Origin: an uncultured Alphaproteobacteria bacterium
Lineage (GTDB): Bacteria > Pseudomonadota > Alphaproteobacteria > HIMB59 > GCA-002718135
Direction: 5' to 3'
Assembly: GCA_902619055.1 (NCBI GenBank)
Contig: CACNCW010000006.1
Location: 1-27,407 of the forward strand
DNA length: 27,407 nucleotides
Positions 16,166 through 19,337 of the stretch are shown here, one piece after another (position 1 is the first letter of the stretch; each line of letters begins with the position of its first letter). The position numbers were made by a program, and so were the translations under genes. A model generated the notes under the pieces. The model searched no databases and had not been told where the DNA came from. It was given only the letters and a program-made list of their open reading frames with translations.

Positions 16166-17323
16166 ATGGAAGTTTCAAAAAGAATATTTGATTTAGAAAC
16201 AGAAACAGCATTTTCTATTCTTGCTAAAGCTAATGATCTCAAAGCTAAGGGGAGAGATATTATTAATTTAGGCATTGGACAACCTGATTTTCCAACACCT
16301 ATAAATATTCAGGAAGCTGCTATTAAAGCAATCAAAGATGGTTATCATGGATATACTCCGTCAAATGGCATACCTGAATTACGAGAAGCAATTTCTGAAC
16401 TAGTATTCAATAAATACGGGGCAAATATTCAATCAGAAAATGTTTTAATAACTCCTGGAGGCAAACCTGTAATTTTTATTTCAGCACTATTATTAGGAAG
16501 TGAGGACAAAGAAATAATTTTCCCTGATCCTGGTTTTCCAATTTATAGATCTATGATTAAATATAGTGGTGCAAAACCTGTGCCATTGCAACTTTCGGAA
16601 AATGATAATTTCGAAATTAATACTCAACAATTAAATGAATTAATTACTGATAAGACCAGTTTGATAATAATAAATAATCCAAACAATCCAACAGGATCAT
16701 ATATGAATAAGAAAAAAATTACTGATCTTGTTAATTTATTAGAGCAGTACCCAAACGTATCCATTTTGAGTGATGAAATTTACAGTAATATTATTTTTAA
16801 TAATGAACAAATGCCATCATTATTAGAATACGAAAGTATAAGAGATAGATTAATAGTTCTTGAAGGATGGAGTAAAACATATTGTATGACTGGATGGAGA
16901 TTGGGATGGAGTATTTGGCCGAATACATTAATCGAACATGCCAATAAATTATGTGTTAATTACAATTCATGCGCCACATCTATTTCACAGTATGCTGGAT
17001 TGGAAGCAATAAAAGGCTCACAAAAAGAAATATTAAAAATTGTTAGTGAATTTGAAAAAAGAAAAGAATACGTTTTCAGTGAATTGAATAAATTAGACAA
17101 AATATCATGTTTTGAACCAGGCGGTGCTTTTTATGCATTTCCAAATATTACTAAAACTGGATTAGATGGAAATAGATTTTCAGAAGTAGCACTTCAAGAA
17201 AAAGGTGTTGCTTTAGTACCCGGTTCAAGTTTTGGTGATAATGCAAGCGAATTTGTAAGAATAAGTTTTGCTAATTCTTTAGAAAACATTAAAGAAGCCA
17301 TTAAAAGATTATCAACAATATGA
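16166..17323 (+). CDS. PLP-dependent class I/II aminotransferase (AspC-like family)
   Basis: Fold-type I aminotransferase (385 aa) that moves amino groups between amino and keto acids, usually with glutamate as one partner. The PLP-binding residues are visible: Asn174 in NNPNNPTG, Asp203 and Tyr206 in LSDEIYSN, the Schiff-base Lys237 in EGWSKTYCMTGWRLGW and the carboxylate-binding Arg365 in FVRISFA. The N-terminus has the usual GIGQPDFPTP. Exact substrate (aspartate, alanine or other) cannot be read from sequence. Its stop overlaps the PII start (ATGA), so it is translationally coupled to the nitrogen sensor. It is transcribed divergently from tRNA-His; the 53-base gap is AT-rich without a clear promoter. 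Confidence 0.92.
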   Translation: MEVSKRIFDLETETAFSILAKANDLKAKGRDIINLGIGQPDFPTPINIQEAAIKAIKDGYHGYTPSNGIPELREAISELVFNKYGANIQSENVLITPGGKPVIFISALLLGSEDKEIIFPDPGFPIYRSMIKYSGAKPVPLQLSENDNFEINTQQLNELITDKTSLIIINNPNNPTGSYMNKKKITDLVNLLEQYPNVSILSDEIYSNIIFNNEQMPSLLEYESIRDRLIVLEGWSKTYCMTGWRLGWSIWPNTLIEHANKLCVNYNSCATSISQYAGLEAIKGSQKEILKIVSEFEKRKEYVFSELNKLDKISCFEPGGAFYAFPNITKTGLDGNRFSEVALQEKGVALVPGSSFGDNASEFVRISFANSLENIKEAIKRLSTI

Positions 17324-17661
17324 AAAAAATAGAAGCAATTATTAAACCTTTTAAACTTTCTCAAGTAAAAGAGGCGCTACATGAAATTGGGATATCTGGA
17401 ATGACTTTAATTGATGTCAAAGGCTTTGGTAGACAGCGAGGATCGACTGGAGGGATGGATGCTAATGATAATTATGATGATGAATTTTTAGCCAAAATGA
17501 AATTAGAGGTAATTGTTGAAGATAACCAAGTCGATGAAGTTATAGAATCAATAAAATCTAGTGCATATTCTGGAAAAATTGGAGATGGTAAGATTTTTGT
17601 ATCTAATATAGAGCAAGTATTAAGAATAAGAACTGGTGAAAAAGACAGTGATGCTGTCTAA
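17320..17661 (+). CDS. glnB: Nitrogen regulatory protein PII, with atypical T-loop
   Basis: Trimeric sensor of ATP/ADP and 2-oxoglutarate (113 aa). The body is well conserved: MKKIEAIIKPFKLSQVKEAL, GFGRQRG with Gln39, and the nucleotide-binding end GKIGDGKIFVSNIEQVLRIR followed by TGEKDSDAV. The T-loop is not: where E. coli GlnB has GHTELYRGAEYMVDFLPK, this protein has GSTGGMDANDNYDDEFLAK, one residue longer, without the ELYRGAEY block. Met46 stands at the Tyr46 position, and Tyr52 is offset by one from the uridylylated Tyr51. Partner recognition or covalent control may therefore differ. The gene overlaps the aminotransferase by four bases and lies upstream of glnA, the usual alphaproteobacterial glnB-glnA order. 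Confidence 0.95.
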   Translation: MKKIEAIIKPFKLSQVKEALHEIGISGMTLIDVKGFGRQRGSTGGMDANDNYDDEFLAKMKLEVIVEDNQVDEVIESIKSSAYSGKIGDGKIFVSNIEQVLRIRTGEKDSDAV

Positions 17662-17702: not shown

Positions 17703-17753
17703 ATCGTTCAACTCTTTTAGAGTCGGAAGTAGGCATTGTGCCGAAGGAACGCA
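17703..17753 (+). ncRNA. Glutamine riboswitch aptamer 1 (glnA RNA)
   Basis: Matches the conserved core of the glnA glutamine-binding RNA. P1 pairs CGTTC (17705-17709) with GAACG (17747-17751). P2 is ACTCT/AGAGT (17711-17715 and 17719-17723). The invariant CGGAAGTAGG core follows P2. P3 is GGCA/TGCC (17732-17735 and 17739-17742), then CGAAGGAACGC. Known members bind L-glutamine and control glutamine synthetase or related genes; here glnA lies downstream. Confidence 0.92.
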
Positions 17754-17767
17754 TGCAAAAGTTATAA

Positions 17768-17820
17768 ATCGTTCAACCTATTCTGTAGGTCGGAAGTAAG
17801 CCTAAAGCTGAAGGAACGCG
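17768..17820 (+). ncRNA. Glutamine riboswitch aptamer 2 (glnA RNA)
   Basis: A second copy, 65 bases after the first. P1 is CGTTC/GAACG (17770-17774 and 17814-17818). P2 is ACCTA/TAGGT (17776-17780 and 17786-17790). The core CGGAAGTAAG follows, P3 is AGC/GCT (17799-17801 and 17807-17809), and then GAAGGAACGC. P2 and P3 differ in sequence from copy 1 but keep pairing, so the two copies show compensatory changes. Non-helical core bases are kept. Confidence 0.92.
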
Positions 17821-17854
17821 CATCAAAAGCAGATTTCATAACTAGAGCATGATT

Positions 17855-17900
17855 TAACCGGGTAACGCTGGATGGCATACCCTTTTGTTGAAGTAAGGAG
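17855..17900 (+). promoter_or_regulatory. Likely expression platform and ribosome binding site of glnA
   Basis: Between aptamer 2 and glnA a hairpin GGGTA/TACCC (17860-17864 and 17878-17882) is followed by TTTT. Directly after it, CCTT (17881-17884) can pair with AAGG (17895-17898) of the strong Shine-Dalgarno AAGGAG (17895-17900), six bases before the ATG. The two pairings share C17881 and C17882 and exclude each other. This could be a translational switch; the hairpin with only four U is a poor terminator. The mechanism is inferred. Confidence 0.5.
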
Positions 17901-17906
17901 ATAGAT

Positions 17907-19337
17907 ATGAAATTAAAAAGCTTGACTCCAAAAGATTTAATGTCTGAAATTAAAGATATGGGCATTAAGATGGTTGATATGCGCTTTACTGATATACCAG
18001 GAACAACTCAACATTTTACAATACCAATTAAATTTTTAGACGAAGATATATTTTCTGATGGACTTGGTTTTGATGGATCTTCAGTAAGAGGTTTCCAAGA
18101 AATTCAAGATAGTGATATGATTGTTTTGCCAGATGCAACTACTGCATACATTGATCCATTTTTTTCAGAAAAAACCTTAGCATTACATTGCAATATTAAG
18201 GATCCTGTAACTTTAGTTGATTATAGTCGTGACCCAAGAAATATTGCTAAAAAAGCAGAAGCCTATTTAAAATCATCTGGTATTGGTGACACAGCATTTT
18301 TTGGACCAGAAGCAGAATTTTTTGTCTTTAATAATGTTCAGTTTGATTCTGGATCAAACTTTGCATTTCATGAAGTTGATTCTGTTGAAGGTACTTGGAA
18401 TAGTGGTGCTGATGAAAATCCCAACTTAGGACATAAACCTAGACATAAAGAGGGTTATTTTCCTTTACCACCAGTAGACACACTGCAAGACGTTAGAACT
18501 GAAATGGTAATGACAATGCAAGACATAGGTCTTACTGTTGAAGCACACCACCATGAAGTTGCAACAGGTGGACAATGTGAAATTGATTTAGAATTTTCAC
18601 CACTCTTGAAGATGGCTGATGATATGATGAAATATAAGTACGTTGTTAAAAATGTTGCTAGACAACATGGAATGACAGCTACATTTATGCCTAAACCTTT
18701 ATTCGAAGATAATGGTTCAGGTATGCACGTTCATCAAAGTGTTTGGAAAGACGGTGACACATTAATGTATAAAGAGGGTAACTATGCTAACCTAAGTGAT
18801 TTAGCTCTAAATTATATTGGCGGTATACTTAAACATGCACCTGCTCTTTTAGCTTTTTGTGCTCCTACTACTAATTCTTATAAAAGATTGGTCCCAGGCT
18901 TTGAGGCTCCGGTGAACATTGTTTACTCTCAAAGAAATAGAACTGCATCTGTTAGAATTCCTGCTTATTCTCAAAGCCCTAAAGCAAAAAGAATGGAATT
19001 TAGATGTCCAGATCCAAGTGCAAATCCATATTTAGCATTCTCAGCAATGTTAATGGCAGGATTAGATGGAATTAAAAATAAAATTAATCCTGGCGATCCA
19101 ACAGACATAAATCTCTATGCTGCTAGCGACGAAGTTTTGTCTAAAATTCAATCTACGCCTGGATCTTTAGCTGAATCTCTTGAAGCTCTTGAGAAAGATC
19201 ATGCATTTTTATTAGAGGGTGATGTATTCACCAAAGATGTAATTGAAACTTATATTAGCTATAAAAAAGAGAGTGAGGTTGACCCAATTAATATTAGACC
19301 TCATCCACACGAGTTTAAATTATACTACGACGTGTAG
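17907..19337 (+). CDS. glnA: Glutamine synthetase, type I
   Basis: Makes glutamine from glutamate, ammonia and ATP; cytoplasmic dodecamer (476 aa). Signatures: DGSSVRGF near 57, the metal/substrate blocks [11 protein letters not shown] and [10 protein letters not shown] (217-223), the ATP-site block [16 protein letters not shown], and [13 protein letters not shown]. The protein has GSI-beta length. The adenylylation tyrosine is present (Tyr404) but its setting is NLYAASDEV and not the usual [17 protein letters not shown] replaces the AAAQHELG of typical alphaproteobacterial GlnA, and the C-terminus [13 protein letters not shown] also resembles deltaproteobacterial and cyanobacterial enzymes (from memory of the family). 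The leader carries two glutamine aptamers, so feedback control by glutamine is expected. An intrinsic terminator follows. Confidence 0.97.

Follow-up and report, generated by a model that had tools for sequence, protein, structure and literature searches.

Two glutamine riboswitch aptamers in a row, set between the gene for PII and the gene for glutamine synthetase, raise the question of whether they report glutamine separately or as one sensor, and of how they stand to the GlnD-PII-GlnE cascade with NtrBC, which has the same job of reporting glutamine to glutamine synthetase and ammonium transport. The window, by which we mean the whole stretch of 27,407 nucleotides from an uncultured alphaproteobacterium that was analysed, holds such a pair. 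An earlier note, made from the letters, had recognised it and proposed steep or two-threshold sensing in place of NtrBC control. The arrangement described there is real, but tandem copies, PII, glnA and ammonium-transporter targets and a marine setting had already been published (excerpts of PMC2864571 and PMC9481103), and the second of these excerpts files 157 doublets of glutamine riboswitches as pseudo-cooperative.

The tandem arrangement alone is not new; what goes further is a proposed helix, P0, that would pair the inter-aptamer linker with a downstream element, a family-wide distribution, and a contrast in GlnD and GlnE between two sister families. Among the open-licence full texts of PMC, no paper was found that describes P0 for tandem glutamine riboswitches or links them to GlnD, and the word riboswitch is absent from two papers on the HIMB59/AEGEAN-169 group, which we take, from GTDB naming, to be the family of the window. 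With P0, tandem glutamine riboswitches would come to look less like "two in a row" and more like a joint sensor.

Two glutamine aptamers between glnB and glnA

The covariance model RF01739 matched the plus strand of the window twice (cmscan; gathering score 35), each match spanning the whole model, and the two aptamers start 65 bases apart in the gap between the PII gene and glnA (Table 1). Both copies carry the P1 strands CGTTC/GAACG and the core CGGAAGTA...GAAGGAACG; P2 and P3 are unlike between the copies and still pair. The class, the tandem of full aptamers, the divergent helices and the position next to PII had all been read correctly in the earlier note, as had the alphaproteobacterial host, since the closest glnA genes are carried by records of uncultured Alphaproteobacteria, mostly single-cell genomes (one is Pelagibacteraceae bacterium AG-337-I02). 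The conserved feature is longer than the stretch first described, running past 17820 up to the glnA start codon at 17907.

Table 1. Features of the glnB-glnA region of the window
Feature	Position	Strand	Details
glnB (PII), upstream gene	17320..17661	+	PF00543, 115 bits; T-loop GSTGGMDANDNYDDEF, without ELYRGAEY
Glutamine riboswitch aptamer 1	17703..17755	+	RF01739, 64.3 bits, E 2.6e-12, model positions 1-53 of 53
Aptamer 1, parts		+	P1 17705-17709/17747-17751; P2 17711-17723; core 17724-17731; P3 17732-17742
Inter-aptamer linker, proposed P0 5' strand	17752..17769	+	CATGC 17752-17756; loop AAAA; GTTAT 17761-17765; AAAT 17766-17769
Glutamine riboswitch aptamer 2	17768..17822	+	RF01739, 62.8 bits, E 6.9e-12, model positions 1-53 of 53
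Aptamer 2, parts		+	P1 17770-17774/17814-17818; P2 17776-17790; core 17791-17798; P3 17799-17809
Conserved downstream element, proposed P0 3' strand	17833..17851	+	ATTT 17833-17836; bulged C 17837; ATAAC 17838-17842; TAGA; GCATG 17847-17851
Hairpin GGGTA...TACCC before the ribosome-binding site	17860..17882	+	sequence varies by lineage; hairpin kept in most
Shine-Dalgarno-like AAGGAG of glnA	17895..17900	+	read from the sequence; 7 nt before ATG
glnA, type I glutamine synthetase	17907..19337	+	TIGR00653, 665 bits, cut-off 429

Membership in the glutamine-I class (RF01739) is indicated by scores above the gathering value, by P1, by an invariant core, by covarying P2 and P3 helices and by a nitrogen-metabolism gene downstream. 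The outer four pairs of P2 and the three pairs of P3 are canonical in both aptamers of all 77 distinct glnA leaders (77/77), and at most of the outer P2/P3 pairs both sides have changed in some of these leaders; the inner pairs are less regular. The locus differs from the class as described in the proposed pairing of linker and element, in one platform for two aptamers and in its recurrence within one alphaproteobacterial family. Some core letters are shared with the Glutamine-II riboswitch (Downstream-peptide, RF01704), but membership there was rejected, the best match (16 bits) falling short of the gathering score of 33. A terminator-like hairpin of seven pairs (17643-17659) overlaps the 3' end of glnB, and given this hairpin glnA may be separately transcribed.

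Kinship was reckoned from the nearest genome (G001), whose order comprises 162 genomes. RF01739 scored over its cut-off in 106 of the 162, all of them among the 110 genomes of one family (f1, hereafter the riboswitch family), and in none of the 52 genomes of its sister family (f2); a search of related genomes was among the checks named in the earlier note. Seven members of the riboswitch family stand apart, four without RF01739 (G005, G046, G105, G110) and three with it but with no exact copy of the downstream element (G063, G074, G102); none of their assemblies holds a full-length close glnA, and that of G105 holds a cut one. In a class-wide sample of 386 genomes, six matched RF01739, two from the riboswitch family and four from a third family (f10) with one copy each. 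At the level of loci, 71 of the 80 closest glnA genes have two aptamer cores and the element before them, one more is cut by the contig end with the element visible, and the other eight, the most distant ones with 63-67% identity, have neither cores nor element.

Eighteen genomes searched in full carry 2 to 8 RF01739 matches each. In 42 regions read, tandems stand before glnA, before a circularly permuted ATP-grasp gene (PF14403) and before PF00909 ammonium transporters whose start resembles a signal peptide, and single aptamers stand before a different PF00909 transporter. Parsing gave 129 distinct leaders (tandems: 77 glnA, 19 transporter, 23 ATP-grasp; singles: 7 transporter, 3 from f10), counts of distinct sequences rather than of independent lineages, many coming from the same organisms in two collections. 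In several of the seven single-aptamer transporter leaders (L164, L166, L172, L175 and others) a U/C-rich stretch 3' of the aptamer could pair by its letters with either the core GGAAGUA or the ribosome-binding site, and it looks like an OFF-type platform. The gene downstream of such single aptamers is preceded in genome G006 by a degraded glutamine aptamer (L182; 31 bits, below cut-off). In front of the ATP-grasp gene sits a short leader ORF (MVKKLDNKK...) whose end coincides with or adjoins the start codon (L183, L145 and other ATP-grasp leaders), a layout that suggests translational coupling of the two.

Proposed pairing of the linker with a downstream element

The linker between the aptamers is 18 nt long, and the window's linker is among only a few sequences found in the 119 distinct tandem leaders. 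Downstream of aptamer 2 lies an element that reads TTTCATAACTAG[AC]GCATG in glnA leaders and TTTCCATAGCTA[ACG]GCATG in the other tandem leaders. In their letters, linker and element are complementary: CATGC is matched by GCATG, an internal loop follows, GTTAT is matched by ATAAC or ATAGC, and beyond a bulged C or CC, AAAT is matched by ATTT. The duplex of the window has an energy of -9.8 kcal/mol, a value as low being reached in 2 of 2000 shuffles. Fourteen distinct combinations of linker and element were compared: in register 133 of 140 cells pair, compared with 22-49 of 140 when the strands are slid by 1-3 columns, and out of 2000 shuffles of linker and element 2 to 21 give an equally good pairing.

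There is counter-evidence, in that in 6 of the 14 combinations the linker is equalled or surpassed by some other stretch of the leader as a pairing partner of the element. The strands of P0 are nearly invariant, which leaves few true compensatory changes, and seven of the 140 cells are not canonical. Between target classes the change is from A to G opposite U (U-A/U-G), and one sub-lineage combines a linker ending in GTTTGAATT, GTTAGAAAT or GTTTGAAAT with the element flank AAC instead of AGA, keeping the duplex. With P0 not imposed, the energy model formed P0 no more than partly in glnA leaders, even when both aptamers were present, with values for P0a of 0.32 with both aptamers, 0.15 free and 0.56 with aptamer 1 alone.

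The second line of evidence is the company that the element keeps. It is present in all 119 distinct tandem leaders, exactly in 114 and with AATCC instead of TTTCC in the other five, all from ATP-grasp leaders, and in none of the 10 single-aptamer leaders. Exactly two aptamers lie upstream of it in 117 of 118 distinct contexts, the remaining one being cut by the contig end. In a whole-genome search, the element pattern occurred in 103 of the 110 genomes of the riboswitch family and in none of the 52 of the sister family, and a reversed control pattern occurred in none of the 162 genomes of the order. A search of Rfam at E up to 5 returned no family for the element beyond RF01739 and a sub-threshold Glutamine-II match. 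Complementarity of linker and element, and the co-occurrence of element and tandem, are thus features of these leaders as read from their letters.

P0 would join both aptamers into one composite sensor in the glnB-glnA gap. Its 5' strand runs on from the P1 helix of aptamer 1 and into that of aptamer 2 with no spacer, and the three helices would be able to stack; we infer that glutamine stabilises P0 and that the aptamers act jointly. Because the 18 nt between the aptamers are too few to hold an expression platform, control would be exerted once, downstream. No platform proper to each aptamer was found, the linker having neither a terminator nor a ribosome-binding site in its sequence. This anatomy, with a short linker that pairs downstream, suggests one joint sensor and not the two-threshold sensing proposed earlier. 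In outline the locus resembles the tandem glycine riboswitch, with two adjacent homologous aptamers, a short linker, an extra helix formed by the linker and, as the anatomy has it here, a single platform following the pair. It is unlike the glycine system in that the aptamer is unrelated and the linker here would pair with the 3' side; the linker of the glycine riboswitch pairs with the 5' leader. Overall we consider it probable that two glutamine-I aptamers joined by P0, with one platform downstream, make up a composite RNA sensor that may replace sensing by GlnD, PII and GlnE.

Expression platform and direction of control

The sequence TTTCAT within the element is the complement of the glnA start, ATGAAA, and in glnA leaders the element would pair alternatively with the linker, as P0, or with the start codon. 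In folding calculations, the start codon was closed through the element beyond all 40 element shuffles in 10 of 13 glnA leaders; two others stood at 1 of 40 shuffles, and one (L169) stood at 19 of 40, with no effect. When both aptamers and P0 were imposed, the mean unpaired value of the start codon rose from 0.21 to 0.73, with an increase in 46 of 48 leaders, and in the same state the openness of the Shine-Dalgarno stretch fell by more than 0.1 in 23 of the 48 leaders and rose in 4. On this folding support, the element would close the start codon in the absence of P0, the codon would be open once P0 and both aptamers are formed, and control would most likely be exerted on translation of glnA. 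For the glnA leaders, an exchange of strands between P0 and start codon is a fair hypothesis. In transporter leaders the effect on the start codon was mostly absent (most of five tested). A start region that fits the element as well as these do is no rarity: among 36 control genes, 5.6% equal the mean for glnA and 22% fit the element as well as ammonium-transporter leaders do; figures for the ATP-grasp start region are unsafe, as the assumed start may lie downstream of the short leader ORF. A general role of the element as an anti-ribosome-binding-site strand, weakly supported outside glnA, is not claimed.

Taken at face value, the folding would have glutamine switch glnA ON, a direction to which we give even weight for and against. 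The usual regulatory logic has glutamine feed back negatively on glutamine synthetase and on ammonium transport, and against it ON control of glnA would be physiologically odd. A composite sensor working in the OFF direction, in which the bound state hinders translation, for example through a U/C-rich strand freed from the unliganded core to the ribosome-binding site, agrees with this logic and is a serious contender that we place a little below an even chance. With the aptamer imposed, the ribosome-binding site was less open in 6 of 7 single-aptamer transporter leaders in folding, as OFF control would have it; opposed to it is the predicted opening of the start codon of tandem glnA leaders in the P0 state, although the response of the Shine-Dalgarno stretch tempers that objection. 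According to excerpts of Weinberg et al. (PMC2864571), earlier experiments suggest that such elements downregulate genes under nitrogen depletion, which fits the ON direction.

A different reading keeps the aptamers apart, as two independent glutamine riboswitches in series that are pseudo-cooperative, the element being the platform of aptamer 2. Published tandems are classed as pseudo-cooperative (excerpt of PMC9481103), and the existence in phages of tandems with linkers of about 8 nt and without the element implies that tandem aptamers need no P0. We nevertheless consider this unlikely for the family studied here, where the linker is too short for a terminator or a ribosome-binding site, is conserved as strongly as the element and is complementary to it, and where the element is never found with a single aptamer. 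Less credible still is a separate site, whether bound by a protein or a small RNA or serving as core of a further ligand-binding RNA, to which the complementarity of the linker would be secondary. The element is near-invariant also at unpaired positions (the bulged C or CC and the UAG/UAA loop), which P0 does not explain, and it belongs to no Rfam family, but pairing with the linker best accounts for its one-to-one co-occurrence with tandems and its absence from single-aptamer leaders and elsewhere in the searched genomes.

The hairpin before the ribosome-binding site folds as a hairpin in most rows, with weak z-scores in many of them, and is followed by a U-run in some lineages only. Transcription attenuation by this hairpin as a glutamine-controlled terminator is improbable, and as a general terminator the hairpin was rejected: TTTTG follows it in the window and runs of five or six T follow it in some lineages, but there is no T-run in lineages L081, L088 and L163, which share the tandem unit, and a terminator scan did not flag it.

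Protein nitrogen sensors and the two sister families

The composite sensor joined by P0 would sit in a family whose protein sensors have changed. GlnD was found in 0 of 20 genomes of the riboswitch family and in 20 of 20 of the sister family (18 over the cut-off), and GlnE in 0 of 20 and 17 of 20, respectively; most of these genomes are incomplete single-cell assemblies, and incompleteness does not explain 0 of 20 against 20 of 20 for GlnD. PII is encoded once in 10 of 11 genomes of the riboswitch family and is lacking in the eleventh (G110), compared with two copies in 3 of 4 sister genomes and one in G157. The T-loop ELYRGAEY is present in sister-family glnB (4 loci) and in four second PII copies of that family. 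In the riboswitch family it occurs in none of 40 distinct strings (39 from 126 loci, plus the window), three of which even lack the tyrosine, and the T-loop of PII has thus diverged from the uridylylation consensus. At the adenylylation site of glutamine synthetase, two sister-family enzymes read NLYDLPPEE and 87 loci of the riboswitch family read NLYAAS, these 87 being the loci caught by the pattern, all of them near relatives of the window, with other lineages of the family not caught.

The earlier note had placed the riboswitch in the stead of NtrBC control. The NtrC/sigma-54 route is indeed absent: rpoN was found in none of 40 genomes from the order and was recovered in the E. coli and Caulobacter controls, and NtrC passed its cut-off in 0 of 60 genomes, a test that is weak by itself, since the cut-off is strict and a single control genome out of 14 reaches it. 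In G001 the nearest protein to NtrC has its best fit with NtrX, at 399 bits, below that model's cut-off of 600. The loss of GlnD and GlnE is nevertheless the more telling one, because the sister family, which has no riboswitch, is also without NtrBC.

Both sister families keep the order glnB-glnA. One has GlnD, GlnE, a canonical PII and a gap of 40-44 bases; the other is without these and has a gap of 245 bases with the tandem riboswitch. Unlike the GlnD-PII-GlnE cascade, sensing in the riboswitch family would then be by RNA, and RNA may stand in for that cascade there, having taken over glutamine sensing from it. That a cooperative, P0-locked two-aptamer riboswitch replaced GlnD, PII uridylylation and GlnE throughout this family of abundant ocean bacteria, and controls glutamine synthetase, ammonium transporters and the ATP-grasp operon, possibly with glnA switched ON, is a larger claim that we put forward tentatively. 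The loss of GlnD and the gain of the riboswitch come from a single comparison of two sister families and so count as one event, and the two are not tied in general, because family f10 keeps GlnD in 3 of 4 genomes despite its single riboswitch and SAR11 IIIa genomes are reported, in an excerpt of PMC10030771, to be without glnD. If the reading holds, nature would here have put an RNA sensor in the place of a conserved protein signalling cascade, and the contrast of the two families makes directly testable how protein regulators are exchanged for RNA in streamlined bacteria of the ocean.

In f10, three distinct single-aptamer leaders, from four loci, were parsed before a CP_ATPgrasp gene (Pfam on one). 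In these leaders (L185-L188) a hairpin CTCTTTC...GAAAGAG lies over the ribosome-binding site.

Glutamine riboswitches also occur in viruses. Single copies have been reported in marine phages (excerpt of PMC9004378). The P0 element gave one exact match in phages (L140) and 33 stretches with a looser pattern, one of them L140 again, all judged to be chance or unrelated coding sequence; the 3' core GAAGGAACG of the riboswitch was not seen upstream of these matches in the stretch checked, and the match in L206 lies at a contig edge and is unreadable. Tandem glutamine aptamers lie in 11 stretches of viral contigs (L238-L248), mostly before short ORFs or no clear ORF, and one of these, L243, has a longer linker with a hairpin of its own and precedes a glutamine-synthetase-like gene.
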